From Cryphonectria parasitica EP155 (Eukaryota > Ascomycota > Sordariomycetes > Diaporthales > Cryphonectriaceae): a stretch of DNA of 64,000 bases. The stretch lies in contig NW_024468916.1 in assembly GCF_011745365.1 (NCBI RefSeq), positions 1,905,630-1,969,629 of the forward strand, given 5' to 3'. A program made the translations under genes and the position numbers. This document shows positions 8,634 to 23,480 of the stretch, piece after piece (position 1 is the stretch's first letter; each line of letters opens with the position of its first letter). A model generated the notes under the pieces. It had not been told where the DNA came from and ran no database searches. It was given only the letters and a program-made list of their open reading frames with translations.

Positions 8634-8956
8634 TGTTGTGGTGGCCAGGGTGGTAGTCCGTGGGACGTGGAGTACAGTGGGTCAAGGGTCCTCATACATA
8701 TAAAGGATACCACCCACTTTTCAAATTCTTTAGCTATAAGCAACAAAAAATAAAGCATCCTTTCTCTTCTTTTCAATTTTGAACCCTTTGGACAGGTCTA
8801 AGACAGGTTTTTCACCCTGTTCTTGTGCCCGTGTGGCCTTAGTTTGCTGTCCTCATCTGCACAGGCACGCTTGGGTTGCACGAGCCCTTGCCCATTGCTT
8901 CGGCAGCTGTTTGTCCCTTTTTCTTTCGAGGGCGACAGCGCCCTAGTTCTGGTTCA
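8634..8956 (+). repeat. Left LTR of inner gypsy element
   Basis: 323 bp, TGTTGTGGTGGCC...GTTCTGGTTCA. It contains a TATA box (TATAAA at 8699-8704), the presumed element promoter. A TGG-initiated purine-rich stretch starting at 8958, one base after the LTR, is the likely tRNA primer site; the tRNA was not identified. Confidence 0.95.
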
Positions 8957-8964
8957 ATGGTGCG

Positions 8965-9850
8965 GTGAGTGTGGACTTAGCTGTTCAGGCTGGTAGCTCA
9001 GGGCTGTTTGCGTCACAGTTCGTGAGGATCAGTAAGAGCAGCAAGTTTACCCTATGGACGGGCGCACTCTTTTTCCCTGCTGAGCTCTTTTATTTCCTTT
9101 ATCTATTACGCTTACACGACAGGCTGTGCATCATGTCTGGACTCTGGGTCATGCCTGAGACCTCTCGTAGAGGGGAGATGGGTGAACAGAGGAGGAGTGG
9201 TGTGAGTTCTGGTCGTGGGCCGGTGAACGATGCGTTGAGCCCGCAAGCCAATATTACGAAGAAACAAATTCCTTTTTCCCACATCAATCAACGATCCTAC
9301 ACAGAAGCTGATACAGCTCAGACCTGTACAGGCTGCGGCGGAAAGTTTAACCATGTCGGATGTGGGTCCATGGTTAAATTACAGAGTGGGATGCTTTTGG
9401 TGGATGGTACTCTGCGGAGAAAAGTGGCATGGTTAACAAGGTCTGTGCTTCTTGCGATGGTCCGATCAGCACGCTCTATCTGGATACGTCTGGCTACATT
9501 GATCCTTTGGATCAAAAGCTTGCTGATTGCATTATCCCAAAAGCGAAGGATACAGAGAGGTGAAGATGAGGAACTGTTAGTGCATACAAGGAATAGAAGT
9601 CGAGGATTACGACGACATCATCCGATATCGAACTTTAATCGATGCCTTATACCTGGTCAGAAATGCCTCCATTGATTGGCAGGACTATTGATAAAGGAAA
9701 TCCCAGTGCAGCACAGAACAGCCAACTCAATCCCTTGTTGTTCATCACAAGACAGACCTCATGTACGCTCCACTTACAGACTGAACCTCCCTCAAGCACC
9801 TGAACCCCCTCGATCTCCATAGTATTGTCTTCTGCAGGATACGGAAGGCA
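8965..9850 (+). pseudogene. Leader ORF of gypsy element with PHD/zinc-finger-like Cys-His pattern
   Basis: Frame 1 is open from 8965 to 9675, although its first codon is GTG inside the primer-site region, so the true start is unclear. It encodes CTGCGGKFNHVGC. A second frame entered near 9400 encodes NKVCASCDGPISTLYLDTSG. Together they give C-x2-C-x4-H-x2-C ... C-x2-C, like a small PHD or RING-type finger broken by an indel. After about 9640 a third frame (EMPPLIGRTIDKGNPSAAQN) looks coding. It lies upstream of the gag frame and is separated from it by stops. Function unknown; it may be the N-terminal part of gag or a separate leader protein. Confidence 0.4.
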
Positions 9851-9858
9851 TTCCGGCT

Positions 9859-12774
9859 GTGGCGTTCTCAACTCAAGGATCTCGAATTAGGAAGGCAAAG
9901 AAACATCGGAGGAAGCAACAACCAAGAGGGAAGATAGCCTCCACGTCTGAGAGCTCTTCCAATCAGACACCCAGTTCGGCCGACTATCTGGCCAACAATC
10001 ACTATGGTCAGAACTTCAGATTCCCCTCCCACAGTGAGCTTGCTGGTGGTGGGTTAACGTTGTTTGCCCGTATGGAAGTCTCCTCGTGGCTGAAGCGATT
10101 CAACTAGTGGCGTCAGATCAAAGGGATTGATGATACTCAAGCACTCAACTTCATGAAAGGCTTCTATACAGATACAATCGTTGCCGGAGAAGTGGAGAGA
10201 TTCACTATAAGCGCCAAAACTTGGGATGAACAGAAGGAGCAACTGTTGATTGCTTATCGCCCTTGGAACCATCTCCAGGCATACACCCCCAAGCAGAAGC
10301 GCCTGAATATCATCAACAACCGTTTCATTACCGATGCTGCTAGCCTCTAGTTGTTCATTGTAGACTATGATAACGCTCTCACTCATCTTAAGATCAGAAA
10401 CAGTCAACCTGTAGCAGAAGCATGGATGAAGCTCCCTTCAACCTGGATCAAGCGCCTCCGAGCTGATCATGGTGTTACTGCTGAAAGCATCAGCAACAAG
10501 AAGTAGCCTTACCTTATGGAAAAGCTGTTGAAGGTTCATCGTGAAGCGCTCCAGGAGGAGACTCAAGACCAACTTGCCTCCGGTGCTACCAACCTTCAAC
10601 TTCATCAACAGGCTCAATTCCAAGGTTCTCCTATGCCTCCACCTCAGCTGGTTCTTGACCAGACACAGCCCGTTCCTGTTCCACATCCGATGCATAGTGC
10701 TCCCAGTCAACCGATGAACCCGTTGGGACAAGCAGTAGGGCTATCGTACTATCAACTGCCTCAATAGTCAACTCGTGATTGGCAAGCTCAGCCTGAACCG
10801 ACTAAGCAGATCTTGAAGGCTGAACCTGCTCAGAAGAGCAACCAAGGATACAACCAGTTAGCTTCAATGATGGAGCAACTCCGCATTAACCAAATTGCAA
10901 TGGCAAAATCCTTAAAGCTGCAGACTGATGCTCTCAGACAGACGCGGAATGTCTCGTATAACCAAACCAAAGCTTTACAGGAGATCTCACAACTGATCAG
11001 GCATCCCCAAACTGTTTCTGCGAGAAACCCTCCTCAGGGGAATGCAAATTTCTTGCAGATGGGTGTTATCTACACAAGTCCGGAGGACAAGGGTGAGCAG
11101 TACTCTGAAGCATGGCGAGCGGAGATCAATGAAATCCTGAAGAAGGACGGAACTCTGCGCAGATGCTACAGCTGTGGGTCGAAGTCCCATGGAGCTCATA
11201 AGTGCGTGGAACTCCGTACTATTATGAACTGTGGCATTTGCTATGCTCCAGCATTAGCGAAGCCAGAGTGGCATCTTGGCAATCACTCGGAGTTTCTAAA
11301 CTCTAGATCAAAACCAGTATCATATGGCCAGGTTATATCCGCTCGAGATAATCCCAAAGGCAGTATGATCCGTCTGATTCTCAGTCTCTGTGAGAATCAG
11401 CGGCTGAAGGGTGTTGAGGATCCTTGGATCTCTCGATATGTTAGCCTGATCCAAGAGGACGAGAAATGGCGTGGAGACCCTGAGATAGCCAAGAATAAGA
11501 CACTATGGGAAGAGACCAACCCCGTTCCCAGATGCAACAATCAGTACAGGATCAACAACATTGAGATCCTTAGCAATGCTGGTGAGATTCAAATGGGGAA
11601 GTCATATCTCACTCCAGCCCAAGCCGAACTATACCTGCCAAAGCTTCCCAGCATCAATGCTGTAGGTGTTGGGCCTATCCAAGCCCAGGTAAACGCAGGT
11701 GAAGCAAAGAAGCGCTATATTAGGAAGGCTGAGTATGATAATAGTGAGGTTGGAGGAGATGCAAGTATGAGAACTGTTGAGGTCCCTATACATTTCGGGA
11801 ATATTGGACCGGAGAAATCCAACAAGCAATCCAACAGTCTGGACAGAGAGCCAACAGTTCAGGCTATTAGTAACAAGCTCCTGAATCAATTCCTAGACCA
11901 CCCGTTGAAGATCTTAAGCTGGGAAATAACAGTCATGTTACCAGAATGAAAAGCTCATCTAATTCACAGTCTTCAAGGAGTCAGCTCTGAAGCCCGAAAA
12001 GTTGTTGATCTCGATAATCAAACCAGCTCGAACCTGTACAAGGCAGATACTGCTAAATCAGCCAATTCATTGCAGCATAAACCCGGAATCTCGACGCTTT
12101 CCCAATCTGAAGGGCTTATTGATAGTCAGATTATCAACACTTGGAATATTACTGAGTACCTTTCGAGACTAGCTCAATCACCCACAGTTCAAGCTTTGTC
12201 TCTTGTTGCTGAATCTGGCTATGTCAAGCTTACTGTTAACATGATTCGAGCCTTCAACAAATCCTCATTTCCTTCTGTAACAGCTTCTATGACTGCTCTC
12301 AGCAGCATCCGAGATAGGAGCATCGCTCCGGTGGCATATATCCCTCTGCAGCTGAGAGGTAAAGAGAATGAATCTGTACAAGCAATGCTGGATACAGATG
12401 CCGAAATGAGCTTGATAGCTCTCTCTCTGTATTCGAGCATGCGCTTATCTTATATGCCAACATCGAATATTATCTTATACACATATAATAGATCAGATAT
12501 AGCGCTTGTTAGAGTTCTTGAAACCGATGTTTTCTGTAGCAGCTTCTCTGAACAGGTAATATTCTATATCGTCGACAACAGATTGATATCGCCAAATCAT
12601 CCTATGCTGTTAGGAATGCCGTTTGTAATGCAAACCAAGCTTTCCTTTGATCACTCCATCCCCGGATTTCTCCATGCAAGCTTCGCCTTTGAAGGAGTAC
12701 AACTGGTTATTACAATCAGCAGTCAGAAACTCCTTAAAGGGGAGGGTTTACACAGAACTATACCAAAAAACTGA
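9859..12774 (+). pseudogene. Gag-protease ORF of inner gypsy element, with premature stops
   Basis: Frame 1 runs from 9859 to a TGA at 12772-12774, interrupted by stops such as TAG at 10105, 10348, 10504 and 10765 and TGA at 11947. Each is one transition from a Gln or Arg codon. The capsid-like region is followed by Gln/Pro-rich sequence and a CCHC zinc knuckle, CYSCGSKSHGAHKC (11164-11205, C-x2-C-x4-H-x4-C), typical of nucleocapsid. Near 12385-12430 AMLDTDAEMSLIALSLYSSM matches a retropepsin active site, with DTDA where DT/SGA is usual. No frameshift indels were seen in this block. The ORF ends directly after a -1 slippery heptamer leading into pol. Confidence 0.85.
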
Positions 12775-12807
12775 GTGCTAGCAGCCACCCTGAGGGATGC
12801 AGGGCTG
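12765..12807 (+). promoter_or_regulatory. -1 ribosomal frameshift signal between gag-pro and pol
   Basis: The slippery heptamer A AAA AAC occupies 12765-12771 in the gag-pro frame, with the gag-pro TGA stop as the very next codon. Slipping back one base enters the pol frame (CTG AGT GCT...), which stays in the frame of RT, RNase H and integrase. Ten bases downstream, CAGCC (12782-12786) can pair with GGCTG (12803-12807), enclosing an inner CCC/GGG pairing. Slippery site, spacer and stem form the standard arrangement for programmed -1 frameshifting. The site is seen; its use is inferred. Confidence 0.7.
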
Positions 12808-15800
12808 TCAGCGGAGAAGTTGTCCCAGAGTGGGTGTTGTTGGAGGAGGGAGATACAGCTGTGATGTCCATACCTGAACGAGACATTGCGGCTGTTGTGA
12901 ACAAGTTAATGGTGGAACTGATGGGGAGGAAGTTGAAGGAGGGTTGCTCCATGGTGAATGAGGAAGGAGCGACCCAAGGGTCTTGCCTGTGTGAAATGCA
13001 CAGCAGCCAGTGCCATTCACGCCAGCCACGTTGTGTGGGGAAGGAAAGAAAAGATGTCTTAAGCCTGGTCAACACTCTTTACAAGCCCAAAGACAAGAAG
13101 GTCAAGCCAATTAATGATTCCCAGCCTGATGGTTCAGTACCAGAAGGAACGATCAGGTGGAAGCTTGCCAAGGTTGAGGAGATGAGACGAGCTCAGCAAT
13201 CCACAAAGCCTACCAAGTATGATGAGTGGATTGAACCCAAGTTCAGCGATCTGGATCCTGATCAGCGCCTGAGACCTGACCAGTAGGCTGCCATGCAAGA
13301 GAAAAACTGTAAAGGGTTTTCTGAAGCTGAGAAGGAAATGTTCAAACACATATTGAGAAACAGGATCAAAGCTTTTGCATGGAACTTTACTGAGATTGGA
13401 AAGATCATTGAGGAAGTAGCTCCCTTGCAAGAAATCAGAACTGTACCCCACAAGGTCTTTCAAGCGAAGTATATTCCAATCCTCAATGCTCTCAGGCCAA
13501 AGCTGATGGAGCTCCTGAAATAATGTATTAAGCAGGAGATCATTAAGGAAAGCTATGCATTATATAGAAACAACTGGTTTCTTGTTATCAAAAAGAATGG
13601 TGGCTTACGCCTGATCAATGACGCTCAAAAGTACAACAAGCACAGCCTTAAGGATGCCTTCATGCTGCCTGCCTCAGATGAATTCTCGAAGGAGTTCGCC
13701 ATATACAAGATTCTTTCACTGCTCAACTTCTTTTCCGAGTATGACTAAGTGCAACTGCATCCTAACAGCAGGAATATGACAACCTTCTCAACGCCCTTAG
13801 GCCTGTTCAGGATGTGTACTCTATCCCAGGGTGCTATCAACTCTGTTGCTCAGTTTATGAGAATAATGATTAGACTTCTATATGATCTTATTCCTCATAT
13901 ATGCCAGCCTTTCCTCAACAACATTCCTGTTCGTGGTTCTACAACAACCTATGGGAATGAAGAGGTTCCGAGCTTTTCCGAAGTGCATAGGTATATTGCT
14001 GAGCACATCGGAAACCTCAATAAGGTTCTTGTAAATGCAGAGCTGGCTGGAGCTACGATCTCAGCATTCAAGTTAGAATGGTGCTGAGTGAAAGTCGATA
14101 TGGTTGGTTATATCGTTAGTTCCAGCGGATAACAACCTCAGAACAGAAAGATGGAAAAGCTTCTGGCCTGAACAGAATGCAAGGATATCAAAGACGTCCG
14201 CTCTTTCATTGGACTGGTTGTCTATTATGCAGCTTGGATTTGGAACTTCGCAATCATTGCCCGATTACTCTACGATCTTCTCAAGAAAGGTGCTGCGTGA
14301 AGGTGGGAGAAGGAACAGAAAGAAGCTGTTGCCATACTTGTCCGAATACTCACATCTCGTTCAGTTATCATTTCAATTGATTACAGCACTGATACTGAGG
14401 AGATCATTCTTATGATGGATGCAAGCCTGTTGGGCTGGGGCGCTGCACTGATGCAGGTAGTAGAGGATAAACGAAAGCTAGCACGTTTCGTTAGCGGAAC
14501 CTGGATAATTGCAGCACAGAAGTACGATGCTACCAAGAGGGAGTATTGCGCTATCCTCTGTGCTCTACAGTCTCTTCAGCAGCATCTCTATGGTTGCTAT
14601 TTCATTCTGGAAACCGATGCTTGCGTTCTGGTAAACCAACTCAATGGAGGAATGAACGATATACCCGGTGCTCTTCTGAACAGATGGATAGCAGTAATCA
14701 AGATGTTTGACTTCACTATCAAACACATTTCCGAGTCAAAGAATCCTGTGGCTAATGCCCTTTCTTGATCTCCATACTCAACGCTACCTAAGAAAGACGA
14801 AGATAGCAATGTTGAGGACTGGTATAATGCTCAGCTTAACAGCATGAATTCAGATGGAGCTGATCTAGTATTACTGCTAAATCCAACTCTTCAGTAAACG
14901 GAACAGTCGAAACGGTATGCAGAGTTCTTATGCCACGAGATCATTCCACCAAAACTCTCCAAGAGGGATCGCAAGAACTTCATGATAGAGGCATTAAAGT
15001 ATCAAATACTTAACCAGGCTCTGTAGCGCCGCGCTAGTGCGAAACTCCCACGCTAACGAGTAGTAGATAATTCTGATCTTCGTTGCTGAATTATCAGAGA
15101 ATGTTATGCCAAGTTTAAACATCGAGATCAAGACTCTACAGTAGCTCGTATTAAGCAACTCTACTACTGAAGAGATCTCTGAACAGATATGGCTAATACT
15201 GTCTCGGGTTGCAAGAAGTATGCAAAGTTCGATCCAAAGATGTGGAAGAAAGAAGTGATCCCAACCCTTCCAAGTCAACTCTTCACGAGGATCAGCATCA
15301 ACATTCAACATATGGCTGAGAATGGCGATTACAGATACCTTGCAGAGGCTCGCTGTGACCTGACCAGCTATATGCTTGCAAGACCCCTCAAGAAAGCTAC
15401 AGCTGCGGAAATGAGGAAGTTCATTTTGAAAGAGATCATTCTTGTATTCGGGTGCTCTCTCAAAATTACTGTTGATGGAGAATCAGAAAACAAGGCTGAG
15501 ATAGCCAAGACTATTAGAGCTCTTGGGATCCTGCTTATCCAGATCTTCAGTTACAATCCTCATGCCCAAGGACAAGTAGAAGCTGATCATCTTTCCTTAG
15601 CAAGTGCTCTTGCTAAGCTAGCTAATGCTCAATTCTGAAGATGGAGGCAGTACTTGAGACTCGCACTCTTCGCTGAAAGGACTATGATCCGCTAGTTGCA
15701 TGGATACAGCCCCTTCTATTTGATTTTCAGTTGGGAGCTGCTTATCCCAATTGAAACTGAAATCCCGACGTGAAGAGTTCTTACATGAACCGAAAACCAA

Positions 15801-16562
15801 TCCCCTCAGGAAGCATTTGAAATGCAGTTAAGGATGATTGCAGCTAAGGAAGATGATGTGCAGAAGGCAATTGAAGCTATCCAGGCATACTATCAAAAGA
15901 TCGCAGCCAAAAATCAAACGCAGGGTTTAGTATGAAAATCTCGACTGAATGTTGAAGATCTCGTGCTTGTCTATAACCACATCCGGAAAATGAGCTACTC
16001 GCGCAATACCAAGATCTCTTATAAGTAGAAGGATCCATACCTGATTGCTCAGATCCTAGACAAACATGCTTATGAGCTCAAGACTACAGACGGAGTTCTG
16101 CTAAAAGGCACATATTCAGCTACTAATCTCAAAAAGTTCGTGCGGAATATGAATGGCATTTGGGAACCCGAGATGCCCATGCCCTGGGAAGAAGATATCG
16201 AGCTTCAACCTGGCCAACTATTAGCAGAAAAGCTGGATTCGATAAGAGCTCCCTAGCGAGAGGAACCAGACAACAATATCCTCGAAGTTCAGAAAGCAGA
16301 TTCAAGCAACAACGCCACATTCTGGGTTCCAGACATCATTAAGCACAACCCCACACCTAGCCAGACTAGTCCTGATCCAAAGATTGTCAATCTAGCAACT
16401 GAAGCGGATAATGATGCTAAGAATGGAAATAGAGTTAGTAACAGTGAACATTTCATACAGGCAGCAGAGAAGGAGAGGCGAGAACAGAAGAAAGCAGATA
16501 GAAGTAGGATGTTTATACCAATCCTAACTAAATCAGCATTCCTAGCTCATAGAGGAGATTAA
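12771..16562 (+). pseudogene. Pol of inner gypsy element: RT, RNase H, integrase; catalytically dead
   Basis: A single frame (frame 3) runs to TAA at 16560 without indels but with about twenty nonsense codons. RT: NNWFLVIKKNGGLRLINDAQ, then FSTPLGLFRM. The YxDD-equivalent is FLNNIP (13911-13925), where fungal gypsy elements have FLDDI, so both catalytic Asp are Asn. RNase H: IILMMDASLLGWGAAL and ATKREYCAIL...LETDA (14412-14768). Integrase: INIQHM at 15297-15311, with Asn (15300-15302) where the first catalytic Asp is expected, then VDGESENKAE and a GQVE motif retaining Glu. The C-terminal domain VEDLVLVYNH...GTYSATNLKKF lies at 15950-16140. The element could not supply its own RT or integrase activity. 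Confidence 0.9.
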
Positions 16563-16849: not shown

Positions 16850-18234
16850 TTATATATCATCCTCATCACCAGAATATCCATAAATATCATTCGATAGCTC
16901 TCTCCTTATTCTGTCCAGATTCATGTCATCCGTATCATCCGCCGAAGAATCGTTATCAAAAACAGAGGAAGAATCTTGAGATTGAACGAACTTAGCTTAT
17001 TTCTCAACACAAGATCCTACTACAGCCTTGCCCTTGCCTTTATCCTTGCTGCGAAATACAGATCGTGGAGCTGCTTGCCCAAACCCAGATACTCCCTTCT
17101 TGAGAGCAGAAGGAGCAGTACTCTTCTTGCCGATCTATGCAGATGAAGTTAGCAGTAATCTTCTTGAGCATCGCAACCATAGTCAGTTATAAGACTTACA
17201 GTATCCTGTGGGTACCATTTCCTTAGCACAAGAGGAATCCATTTGATCTGATTATACGCAATACCTTTATCCCGCATAAGCTTGTATTGAGCTTTGATAA
17301 TACGCTCAACATCAGCATTGGAGTTGACTTGAGAATCTACCTCGATTACACATCGAGGGCTGAGTTGGTAAAACGAGTGCTAACGCTGCAAGAAGAACAA
17401 TAATTAGTATATACTCAAACCTGGTTAAGGATATCAGAATGGGAATCTTACTTGTATACTGCGCTTTTTAACACAAGGGAAGTCTTTGGTATAATTATAT
17501 TCAGACTCTGCATAATAAATGCAGTTGCTGCACTTCCCATTGAAGAAGCTCTTCATTGAGATGCATTCTAGGAAAGGCCAGTTAACATTAACCTGCTGCC
17601 CCTGAACAGGCATGCAAGCAGTGGCATACTAACGAGAGCAGCAATTGCAAGGAACTAGGTTACGCCGACCATAGAACTGAACGAGAAGGGAATTTACTCG
17701 CTCAGGTTGGGAGAAGATGCGGGTAAGGTACTCGCCGAAGGGCTTCCAACTGGCTTTACACACCACAATAGGATTTAGTTTGATAGAATCCTTATTATCC
17801 AGCCTTGCGAAATGAGCAGCAAAGCTAGGGCTTGGCAGTGAGTTGTTTCAAAACATGATATCGCCTTGGATATCCCAAGAAGCGTATATCAAGCCAAGAT
17901 CTCCCTTGATGGTATTGAAGTCTGTAACATCAAGAAAGTCGATATGGATATCCTTGAGCTAGTGGTAGTTGCTGCCCTGAGGAGGAGGAACCGAAGAAGA
18001 AAACCAGATCCAGACCTTGTCAACCTCTTGAGGAGCGGTGTTTATCCGCGAAGAGAAAACAGCGTTAGTGACGATTCGAGATATCTTGAGTGTGTTGCAG
18101 AGCTGAGCAAGGGAAGGTTGACAGAAGGAGAAGTTGTTGTGCGAAGAATGAATTGAAAGGCAAGGTGAACTGAGGGAGAGGTTGTTGAACAGTTTGCTGA
18201 AGGTTGATGAGATGGCAATGAGTGATAAACACAC
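16850..18234 (-). pseudogene. Antisense, spliced Cys-rich accessory gene in gypsy element (DUF3716-like)
   Basis: On the minus strand, exons up to 18234-17452, 17385-17200 and 17134-16850 join in frame through two good introns (17451-17386 with tatactaat; 17199-17135 with tgctaac). The product has an N-terminal region (DKVWIWFSSSVPPPQG, then HIDFLDVTDFNTIKGDLGLI) and a Cys-rich domain with NLVPCNCCSR, ATACMPVQG, WPFLECISMKSFFNGKCSNC and KDFPCVKKR. A basic Lys/Ser tail (LKKGVSGFGQAAP, KDKGKGKA) and an acidic end (DNDSSADDTDDMNLD) follow. The spacing of CxCC, C, C, CxxC and C recalls fungal DUF3716, but this is tentative. Five in-frame stops are each one transition from a sense codon. No clear ATG precedes DKVWIW, so the 5' boundary is uncertain. 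DNA or RNA binding is a guess. Confidence 0.62.
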
Positions 18235-18701
18235 CCAACTGAGTTACCACGCCTTCTATCCAGTCTGTTGCTGAACAGCTCCTATCTGGCCAAGGGTGAA
18301 GCTATTTGCCTTGTAACAAACAGAAAGCAGTGAATTACTTGGGTAGTTGCTAGACAAGATAAATTGGCCATTCCATCCACACTCGCAGCCAGCTATTCTT
18401 CTTCCTCCTTCAACCTCTTCACAACCACCTTTCTCAAGCATATACACACCCTTTTTCTTCCTCATCAACGCTGCCCCAGACCTGTACACCAACATCAGAG
18501 CAAATTGTTAACTGCTCTGCTTACATAATATCATCTTCCTCAACAGATCCTCAGGCTGAAGCTGCATTCTTCTCTATCTTTCTTCCTCAGTCAACACCCT
18601 CTCAGTCCCTTAACTTTACACCTTTGCAAACCCCTCTCGCAATTGCTCACCTTCCGACAAAGCTGTTCTTCCCTTTTCACTTTCCTTTCAACTCAGCAGC
18701 A
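18235..18701. promoter_or_regulatory. Putative bidirectional promoter/leader region inside gypsy element
   Basis: This spacer separates the divergent antisense and sense accessory genes. From 18361 to 18701 the plus strand is strongly pyrimidine-rich (cttcttcctccttcaacctc, tcttcctcagtcaacaccc), like fungal 5' leaders, and ends with actcagcagcaATGG at the sense start. The minus-strand side before the antisense gene is also CT/CA-rich. No TATA box is obvious. The role is inferred from position and composition. Confidence 0.4.
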
Positions 18702-20366
18702 ATGGCCGAATTCAAGTACTCTCTGTTCCCACCTGTCCAGCATAGCTGAGGGGACTGGATGACCAAGGCCTACTGCTTTCGGACTGTCTTTCCCAGAGCG
18801 CCGTACCCAACTGAAGTAATCAAGAGTCGTCCGCCCTACTTCAGTCTAAGGGACGAAGAAAATCATCTGGCAGCAGGACTCGTCGAGAAGTACTTCCCAG
18901 GGTTACCCCCTCGCAAGTCGTACTTGCCCACGATCTTCAGCGCCAATCCTTCCAGATACCTTCTCGATATCTATGATCTGGTCGGATTCTTAGATGCAGG
19001 AATCCCTCAAGATATTGGTCCGCAGCATGCTGTGGCTGCTTTTCGTCATTACGCTCAGTACAATCAACAAGACGTATTCTTGATAGGATGCCTTCGTATT
19101 CCATCGATAGCCCATCCATCTGGCTCTCCTGATATTCTCAATAAACAGAATCTGCCCAAACATGAGGCTAGATAGAAGCGCCTATGGGTTCTCCTCTCAG
19201 TCAATACAGCGACTTCAGCTTGTGCTCTGTCTTAGCTCAATATGAAGACTGAAAAAGGATTTTACATCGCTGTGCACAAATCCGACAATATCCTACTGGC
19301 TCATGCAAGCAAGCACTATCTGAACAGTCAGCTCAGAAGTGCTGGAGCCAATCGGGATTGGGATTTCGAGAATGTTCCAACTACGCCGCTGGATAACGAT
19401 TCGAATGCAGCTCTGCTCTATGCAATCGAACTGTTTCGCCTTCGAATCCTGAAATCTACTGATTTCTACCAATCACCTAGTGGCTGTCCAGACTGGAGGC
19501 AAGCTCTCTATCTTAACCATAGAGAAACTGCACAAAATGTGAAAGAATGGGGTGCGGAGATGGCTATAACAAGCCTGCACTGCCAGGCCTTCTCCTATGA
19601 GCTGGGACACAGCAACTATACGCGATATCCTGATCAGCCATTAAGAAGGAGTGCCTCACTTCAAGAATACAAGGCTGTACAAGTGGAAGCCGGTAGGGTA
19701 CTGAATATAACCTACAAGCCGAATGTTACCTTCTTCGTGGGAGGAGTTGCAGACTTGCCTGAACTGTCTATTGAAGGCGATCTCAACAGGATGAGGAGGG
19801 ACATATCAGCCTTTGCCCTGGAGGATTTCAGAGCGAGTAGGGCACCCAGCCTAGTTCCGTCAAGACAACAGTCCCGAGAGAGCACAGCTCCAGCTGGCCC
19901 GATCTTGTGTTCATCAAGAGGATGTAGTATCAGCTCAGAGTTAAGTCGACTCCCATCCGGAACTCCTACCGATCCTTACTCCTCTTCACCTCGAGAAACG
20001 CCTGTCGGTCCAGGACCAACAATCAACCTGTCAATGCAGCAAACAGCTAGGCCTGGACGTGCTACTGAAGCCCCATTGCATCAGAGACTGAGAAGCAGCA
20101 ACATCATGCCTCCCAGTTTTCCTGATAGACCTCAGAAGCCTCGTATGCCTCTATGGAATGAGCTTCATAGCCTTAACCCTATCAGGCCCTCAGTGGGTTC
20201 TCCGAACTGGACAGGGTTCGATCATGCTATCAAGATGGATATGTATAAAGCGAACTGCGAAAGGATCCGTTGAGTGAGGATGCAGAATCAGGAGAGAACT
20301 GCTGCTGCTGCTGCTGCTCGAGCAGAGTTTGAGAGCAGACGGGGACAGAGAAGAGGTCAGCGTTAG
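18702..20366 (+). pseudogene. Sense accessory ORF of gypsy element, unknown protein of about 554 residues
   Basis: The frame opens at ATG 18702 (MAEFKYSLFPPVQHS) and runs to TAG at 20364-20366. It is broken by only four stops (18747, 19173, 19233, 20271), each one transition from a sense codon and without indels. I do not recognise a domain. The N-terminal half is a folded-looking segment rich in aromatic residues (YPTEVIKSRPPYFSLRDEEN, GFYIAVHKSDNILLAHASKH, CPDWRQALYLNHRETAQNVK). From about residue 390 it becomes Ser/Pro/Arg-rich and probably disordered. The C-terminus has an Ala run and Arg-rich end (GCT repeat at 20301-20319). There is no transmembrane segment, so it is not env-like. It lies where env or other third genes sit in LTR elements and is divergent from the antisense gene. 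Confidence 0.6.
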
Positions 20367-20616: not shown

Positions 20617-20939
20617 TGTTGTGGTGGCCAGGGTGGTAGTCCGTGGGACGTGGAGTACAGTGGGTCAAGGGTCCTCATACATATAAAGGATACCACCCAC
20701 TTTTCAAATTCTTTAGCTATAAGCAACAAAAAATAAAGCATCCTTTCTCTTCTTTTCAATTTTAAACCCTTTGGACAGGTCTAAGACAGGTTTTTCACCC
20801 TGTTCTTGTGCCCGTGTGGCCTTAGTTTGCTGTCCTCATCTGCACAGGCACGCTTGGGTTGCACGAGCCCTTGCCCATTGCTTCGGCAGCTGTTTGTCCC
20901 TTTTTCTTTCGAGGGCGACGGCGCCCTAGTTCTGGTTCA
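20617..20939 (+). repeat. Right LTR of inner gypsy element
   Basis: 323 bp, identical to the left LTR except at two positions (G/A in the ttttgaaccc region and in ggcgacagcg). The TATA box is at 20682-20687, the same offset as in the left copy. Confidence 0.95.
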
Positions 20940-21840: not shown

Positions 21841-23480
21841 AAAAGAAGCATTATAAATAACTATCACCCGAACCTGAAACCTGGAAAGAAGTACGAAACA
21901 GTTCTTTCCACACCGAGTGGTAGAAAGCAATACAATCAGAAATCCAGGGATTAGTTAATAAAAGGGTATAGCAAACTCTCAAGCATGAAAAAGCTAAAGA
22001 GAAGCTACTGCTACTCAAATGAGTATACAGATATAAACTTGATGAGAATAGTTACTTAATCTCATTCAAAGCCCGAATCTGTATACAAGGAAACCTGCAA
22101 AAAGCAAGCAATCTTCAAGATACGTATGCAGCAATGCTAGCTGCACGCTTCTTTCGCATACTTATAGCTGTGGCAGCATATTTCAATCTAGAGATCAACC
22201 AGATGAATGTTATCAGAGCATTCCTGAATGCTAGCAGGAAAAGCCAGGAAAGCATTTTCTGTAAGCTGCCTGATGGATTCAAGAAGGAAGGGAAAATTAT
22301 GCTTCTGAAAAAGGCACTATACAGCCTGAGAGACTCGCTAGCACTCTGGTACAAGCACTTCTGCTCAACTCTGCGAAATCTCAGCTTTACGCCCTCAACT
22401 GAAGAGCTCTGCATGTTTACTAACAAAGCAAACAAGCTAATTATCCTGTTCTATATGAATGATATCCTACTGTTCTATCTGCAGAACCAGGCATCAAAGA
22501 TATGCAGAATGAAGAAAGAGATCTTCGAGGCATATGAGGTAAAGAATCAGAGAGCAGCAGAATGATTCTTAGGAGTTCGAATCATCAGAAACAGAGCTAA
22601 CTACACGATCAGCCTAGTTCACAATGCATACATCGAGAAAATAGCCAACAAGTTTAGCCTTGCAGCTAATACAGCTTTAATACCTTCAATGCCTCTGAAC
22701 CTTGGGAAGCTTATCAAATGGAAAGAGGAAGCATTAAAAAACCAAATCAAGAAGTATCAGGAGAAGATTGGATCAATCCTGTATACTGCTATCATGATAA
22801 GACTAGATATAGCTTTTGCATATACTCTTCTCTCCAGATTTTTAACAAATCTAGAGCCAAAGTACCTGGAATAAGCAGACAGAGTAATCTATTACTTGTA
22901 CGGAATGAGATTTCTAGCAATTCAGTACGGAGGAAGCCACTTTGAGGCTCAAGCCCTGCTAATCGCCAGAGATGCTTCCTTTGCCGACGATGCAGAGAAT
23001 CGAAAATCCTCACAAGGATATATCTTCAGCCTATTCGGAGATCCTATACAATGGAAAGCAACAAAGCAAAGCCTGGTAATCATCTCAATCACAGAGGCTG
23101 AACTGTATGCCCTCTCAGCCACAGCTAAGGAAATGATTGCCTTACAACGCTTCTTTTGAAACTTCACTTTGAACCTCAGCAAGCTCTGAAATATCTTCTG
23201 TAATAATCAACAAGCTATACAGCTGATAATTACAGAGCATAAAAGGATAAATATAAAGCTTCACTATATGAATATACACCAAATGTAGCTCAAGCAGGAG
23301 TTCCAAAAGAGCAAATTCCAGATCTCATATATGCCAACACAGAGTATGCCAGCTGATGGACTAACCAAGAACCTCAATTGAGCGCAGTTCGAATACTTCA
23401 GAGCGCTCCTCAATCTTCAGGATATCAGCTATGCCTTGAATCAGAGAACCAAGAAGGAATCTAAAGGGATATAGATGGGC
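21840..23480 (+). pseudogene. Reverse transcriptase and RNase H of outer copia element, inactivated
   Basis: The RT (RVT_2 type) reads AARFFRILIAVAAYFNLEINQMNVIRAFLNA, FCKLPDGFKKEGKIMLLKKA and LYSLRDSLALWYKHF. The catalytic box is YMNDIL at 22452-22469, where YxDDIL is expected, so the first catalytic Asp is Asn. RNase H follows: ARDASFADDAENRKSSQGYI, PIQWKATKQSLVIISITEAE and LYALSATAKEMIALQRFF (22960-23156). The tail MPADGLTKNLN matches the usual copia pol end (ADxLTK). Stops, mostly TGA and TAG, and the AT bias fit RIP. IN-RT-RH order identifies Ty1/copia. Confidence 0.9.

Follow-up and report, generated by a model that had tools for sequence, protein, structure and literature searches.

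Organization of the Gypsy element

We analysed a window of 64,000 bp from Cryphonectria parasitica EP155 (G000:C8:1905630-1969629) and searched the genome, 43.8 Mb in 17 contigs, for related sequences. The window contains one copy of a Ty3/Gypsy LTR element of approximately 12.3 kb. Its two LTRs (5' LTR, 8634..8956, with the termini TG...CA; 3' LTR, 20617..20939; both on the plus strand) are each 323 bp long with 2 mismatches between them, and the 4-bp target duplication GCAA is present immediately upstream of the 5' LTR and directly downstream of the 3' LTR. Between them lie a gag-protease region (8943..12790, plus strand; ends approximate, as they were transferred from the 1278-aa frame of L048) and a pol region encoding reverse transcriptase (RT), RNase H and integrase (12738..16562, plus strand; start approximate), which is in the -1 frame relative to gag. 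Both regions are broken in the window copy. Just downstream of the element, at 22023-22565, a frame was judged by eye to resemble part of a Copia-type reverse transcriptase.

The same plan with unbroken frames was found in a copy on contig C10, read as the two pieces L048 and L010. In this copy the gag-protease frame is open for 1278 aa from stop to stop, pol can be read through in the -1 frame, the order RT, RNase H, integrase being that of Gypsy elements, and the LTRs are 319 bp long with 0 mismatches and a CTAG target duplication. Domain searches of L048/L010 gave the order protease-RT-RNase H-integrase, with PF13650 (36.3 bits), RVT_1 (50.4 bits), RNase H (69.4 bits) and H2C2 (45.0 bits) all above their cut-offs, and rve at 27.7 bits, below its cut-off of 32.6.

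The pol region of the window copy ends at about 16562, leaving approximately 4.05 kb up to the 3' LTR. The original prediction, which was made from the DNA sequence of the window, had described about 4 kb between integrase and 3' LTR, and its coordinates fit those found here. It had also proposed that this interval carries a divergent pair of extra genes, one of them antisense and spliced, and the LTRs, the pol region and the two gene models described below confirm this layout.

A predicted spliced antisense gene encoding a DUF3716-type protein

The antisense gene occupies 16850..18084 on the minus strand, with its start codon running from 18084 and its stop codon down to 16850, and is modelled as three exons encoding 367 aa. 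Intron 1 (17386..17451, minus strand, 66 bp) and intron 2 (17135..17199, minus strand, 65 bp) both have GT..AG borders and one CTRAY site each (CTAAT and CTAAC), and their junctions are in frame, as had been predicted for a three-exon gene with two consensus introns. This model is the longest among the two-intron models enumerated, and its borders are consensus-like. The window copy of the gene has 5 in-frame stops in the spliced frame.

The predicted protein has a DUF3716-type Cys domain (17503..17688, minus strand; residues 133-194, within exon 1), a basic stretch and an acidic C-terminal tail, the net charges of the final three 40-residue blocks being +7, +9 and -8. The proposed likeness to DUF3716 was borne out by a match to PF12511 in an intact copy, at 25.7 bits only just above the gathering cut-off of 22; the window copy scores 22.7 bits with one stop inside the domain. 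A protein search in which 1010 candidates were scored, all of them sharing short words with the query, returned no relative of the antisense protein at E <= 0.001, and the best match of exon 1 to PDB sequences had E = 0.6. No literature on DUF3716 was found in a search that mostly covered journals outside subscription.

The sense accessory ORF and the intergenic gap

On the plus strand, the sense accessory ORF extends over 18702..20366 (554 codons), with its ATG at 18702 and its stop codon at 20364-20366. It is open in the intact copies, in agreement with the original prediction of a 554-codon ORF read from its own ATG, and has 4 in-frame stops in the window copy. Its product is an orphan protein with a basic C-terminus. 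It matched no Pfam family at E <= 1, its best match among PDB sequences had E = 0.027, and two scans of viral contigs gave no match. Two protein searches, in which 7992 and 7999 candidates sharing short words with the query were scored, found no relatives outside C. parasitica; the sole named match was M406DRAFT_102695, an annotated protein of C. parasitica EP155. AlphaFold modelling of the annotated part of the protein (P0001, 427 aa, no alignment) gave a pLDDT of 37.7, too low for a usable fold.

The location of this ORF, in sense orientation downstream of pol, is that of env-like genes (PMC7264820), and the element might on this ground be regarded as retrovirus-like, with an envelope-like gene and an added antisense regulator. 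We consider this highly improbable, since the product has no transmembrane-like stretch by a crude test (the peak 19-residue hydropathy mean is 1.38), no Pfam assignment and a C-terminus that is basic.

The start codons of the two genes are separated by 617 bp (18085..18701), a gap which by its composition is a candidate bidirectional promoter. The pyrimidine content leading into the ATGs is 59-78% on the plus side (last 317 bp) and 67-70% on the minus side (120 bp). A pyrimidine-rich strand before the ATG fits fungal leaders. Both accessory genes would then be transcribed separately from the gap between them and not from the LTR.

Retention of the introns in the copies that reach them

We fetched 38 copies of the segment to examine the introns, 3 of which are incomplete and end before reaching them. 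Both introns were complete in all of the other 35 (the window copy being counted twice, as the window itself and as L009). On the sense strand, which is that of the genomic RNA, the introns read CT..AC, and the genomic RNA therefore has no splice sites at these positions. The antisense introns would thus be invisible to splicing in the opposite-sense genomic RNA and be copied unchanged, and the gene would keep them through retrotransposition, as had been proposed. This illustrates how a retroelement can keep introns, by carrying a gene opposite to its genomic RNA.

RIP-like damage to the copies

A DNA search with the 4-kb segment found at least 38 matches in the genome, including the window copy and partial copies, and the segment is therefore not a chance assembly. 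Both genes are open in six copies (L010-L015), whose accessory segments match without a difference over 4017 bp. The elements around these segments do vary: the 3' LTR of the C10 copy recurs unaltered in just 2 of the 5 others, and most of pol is missing from one. In this last case (L049, G000:C9:914200-918800, read with L012), most of RT and integrase has been deleted, with the protease joined to the C-terminal region of integrase; within the accessory segment it does not differ from the five other copies.

Compared with these six copies, the 4017-bp segment of the window copy has 207 differences, comprising 188 C>T or G>A changes, 17 opposite transitions and 2 transversions, with 0 gaps, and neither gene is open. 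The original prediction that the frames were damaged by single transitions without indels thus held apart from the 2 transversions; the cause, which it had not named, is RIP. The 32 other copies, counting the window copy and some fragments, differ from the six at 92 to 951 positions, nearly all of them C>T or G>A, with at most 1 gap per alignment. In most copies CpA is the context most often changed by count, CpG is changed at least as often per available site, and CpT is changed least. The context of the damage is RIP-like, without the pure CpA preference of RIP in Neurospora. To judge from its sequence, the window copy looks as if it had been inactivated by RIP, that is, by host defence rather than by decay with age. 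C. parasitica has a rid ortholog and RIP has been reported in this species (PMC8545091).

RIP-type changes were rarer in the 3' LTR than in the accessory segment in all 22 copies with a readable LTR of the 23 tried (L016-L038), affecting 0.06-0.26 of C/G sites in the LTR versus 0.23-0.45 in the segment. We had considered that the window copy might have moved after RIP, its LTRs being nearly identical; this was rejected, as the LTRs carry less RIP than the body in each of these 22 copies.

Non-RIP variation is concentrated at synonymous sites

Values of dN/dS within the family were rejected as a test of constraint, as nearly all differences are made by RIP. Because RIP hides ordinary selection, we used non-RIP variation alone, counting an allele only when it differed from the six identical copies by a change other than C>T or G>A and was common to at least 3 of the 32 other copies; the gene models had been fixed before the test. 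In the antisense coding sequence all 5 such sites (6 alleles) were synonymous and fell at codon position 3 of the spliced frame, 3 in exon 1 and 2 in exon 3 (p = 0.004), where about one third (0.31-0.36) would be expected to be synonymous. In the plus coding sequence 5 of 6 sites were synonymous (p = 0.027). Pooling both coding sequences gave 10 of 11 (p = 3e-4), from few sites; when the threshold was lowered to 2 copies, synonymous sites made up 7 of 8 in the antisense coding sequence and 7 of 10 in the plus coding sequence (pooled, 14 of 18; p = 4e-4).

Non-RIP sites were also more frequent in the introns (6 in 131 bp) than in the antisense (5 in 1101 bp) or plus (6 in 1662 bp) coding sequences (Fisher's test, introns versus both coding sequences, 6e-5); however, a stretch of 32 bp in intron 2 accounts for 5 of the 6, which may go back to a single event. 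The intergenic gap, with 4 sites in 617 bp, and the outer gaps, with 2 and 0 per 253 bp, are no denser, or hardly denser, in such sites than the coding sequences. Since the intron sites are clustered and the gaps hardly differ from coding sequence, the synonymous pattern is the stronger argument. This suggests that purifying selection left its mark on both genes as the family was spreading, and the prediction that both frames were coding when the family was active is upheld by the six copies with both genes open and by the synonymous sites. RIP here permits an unusual test: the variation that it cannot have made speaks for constraint at the level of codons in a spliced antisense gene.

The same variation bears on whether the antisense unit might act as RNA, with antisense transcription past pol leading to dsRNA or to attenuation of the genomic RNA and with the protein frame secondary. 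For LTR elements, it has been discussed that antisense transcripts may give dsRNA and curb transposition (PMC7264820), and C. parasitica has a Dicer/Argonaute silencing pathway (PMC4182546). If the unit acted through its RNA only, however, the changes in two exons would not be expected to be confined to third codon positions. We therefore regard an RNA role as unlikely to be the main function, although it may exist in addition to constraint on the protein.

The gene pair in other copies and in sister elements

The search for the plus ORF, in which 77 of 106 candidates were scored, listed 79 matches, 70 of which include residue 1. A divergent match to antisense exon 1 lies 591 to 1045 bp away in 63 of these 70, and 7 are unpaired; conversely, 10 of 73 antisense exon-1 matches are unpaired among the matches listed. 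The pair thus recurs in other copies with the same divergent layout and, as the 63 pairs and the sister element described next indicate, is not a one-off capture.

The sister element L047 (C10:30500-40000) is RIP-damaged and internally deleted, retaining part of gag and the integrase tail, and its LTRs are 81-84% identical to those of the window family. Its plus ORF shows 37% aa identity over 484 residues. On the minus strand, between the integrase tail and the plus ORF, we found a stretch, interrupted by stops, that corresponds to about 62 residues at the C-terminal end of the antisense protein. This remnant gave no tblastn match; its score of 67 was reached by 0 of 4000 other windows (best 51) and 0 of 3000 shuffles (best 62), and at the DNA level it scored 56 against a shuffle maximum of 33 (n = 1000). 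Remnants of both genes being present in L047, both genes, or at least the C-terminal part of the antisense gene, were therefore present in the common ancestor of the two families, and the rest was lost in L047. Transversions between L010 and L047 at codon positions 1, 2 and 3 numbered 96, 82 and 101, a weak excess at the third position.

In two related derivatives, L055 and L056, the plus ORF is represented by its later part alone (41% identity over 333 residues and 39% over 349 residues, respectively); no antisense remnant was found in either. The plus ORF was found in three lineages, the window family included. A further derivative, L050 (G000:C2:38200-42260), together with six more places, represents seven copies of a 4-kb non-autonomous element that are 100% identical over 1610 bp (one scores slightly lower). 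The LTRs of L050 are 96.6% identical to those of the window copy, and these copies were probably moved by proteins of the full-length family. The C-terminus of the L050 plus ORF is 68% identical at the aa level, with a dN/dS of 0.34 (bootstrap 0.21-0.56, 136 codons), and the adjoining integrase tail gave 0.12. As a wrong-frame control, the shifted sense frames gave 1.02 and 0.95 and the antisense frames 0.75, 0.41 and 1.05; the antisense value of 0.41 is close to 0.34, and this frame has its third positions in common with the sense frame, hence gives no independent signal.

Most or all of the antisense gene is absent from the four deletion derivatives that were read (L047, L050, L055 and L056), which argues that it is not needed in cis. 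The only diverged relative of the antisense protein is of its C-terminal part, with none found for the N-terminal or DUF3716 parts. The pieces of plus ORF in the deletion derivatives may have survived through their position beside the 3' LTR and not because the protein is needed.

Comparison with known antisense genes of retroelements

Antisense accessory genes of LTR elements are known, with functions that are described as unknown and with a nuclear or DNA-binding role proposed for their proteins (PMC7264820, PMC11963269). In the plant elements Grande (gene23), RIRE2 and Retand, one or more antisense ORFs lie between pol and the 3' LTR, as in the window family; Grande has a promoter upstream of gene23, and Retand has sense ORFs in this interval too (PMC7264820, PMC11963269). 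The domains differ, with TRP28 in Retand, whereas the window family has DUF3716, two introns and a constrained sense partner. The word 'intron' is absent from the main texts of these two papers. Among fungi, Boty-like retrotransposons of Botrytis cinerea have the antisense gene brtn (Zhao et al. 2011, Virology 417:248, by its title as cited in PMC7264820 and PMC8365987), which is called an additional ORF of BcGypsy1 (PMC8365987); like the window family, and as far as that title goes, this is a fungal Gypsy element with an extra antisense gene.

Spliced antisense expression, as predicted here, has a retroviral precedent in HBZ of HTLV-1, which is likewise encoded antisense in a retroelement, its mRNA being spliced and its protein nuclear. 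Retroviruses of this type have antisense promoters in the 3' LTR, whereas the candidate promoter of the window family is internal (PMC10186651). Among titles and the beginnings of abstracts on antisense or oppositely oriented genes, mostly from journals outside subscription, we found no fungal LTR element reported to combine a sense gene with an antisense gene that has introns. Such a pairing, with constraint on the antisense gene, looks new among Gypsy elements. Since both genes are open in some copies, RNA-seq could show directly whether the antisense gene is expressed and spliced.

Origin and possible function of the gene pair

The best overall explanation, which the sequence comparisons make likely, is that in this Ty3/Gypsy family the interval from pol to the 3' LTR has long contained a cassette of two divergent genes under coding constraint. 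Function is the weakest step in the interpretation. The antisense product, with its Cys-rich domain, basic stretch and acidic tail, resembles nuclear regulators in outline only. We tentatively propose that it could be a nuclear regulator of element transcription, or of host chromatin at the copies, and that the sense product could be a second, nucleic-acid-binding accessory factor and not an envelope protein. A more far-reaching possibility, which we consider doubtful, is that the two genes form a self-contained unit with its own LTR-independent bidirectional promoter. Its antisense gene, with introns and descended from a family of host DUF3716 proteins, and its orphan sense protein would together control the element or disarm host silencing, and the unit would predate the divergence of at least two of the element families in this genome.

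Matches to DUF3716 over the cut-off in the genome numbered 20 among the matches listed, of which 7 are copies of the element and 13 lie elsewhere. We compared the antisense protein with four of the non-element loci (five matches), and the best alignment was 29.7% identity over 64 residues with E = 0.001. From these comparisons a host origin of the domain is plausible, with no close donor among the four loci read. The 13 matches, the resemblance at one of these loci and the presence of introns like those of an ordinary fungal gene would also be expected if a host DUF3716 gene had been captured once in reverse and carried as a neutral passenger, with the plus ORF a chance or relic frame. This is improbable, since the changes in the antisense coding sequence are synonymous only, the sister element L047 has a homologous antisense C-terminus, and the plus ORF is constrained between sister families and found in three lineages; a constrained cassette remains the preferred reading. 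Among the 13 matches outside the element, two lie side by side at L053 (G000:C4:1587500-1589500).
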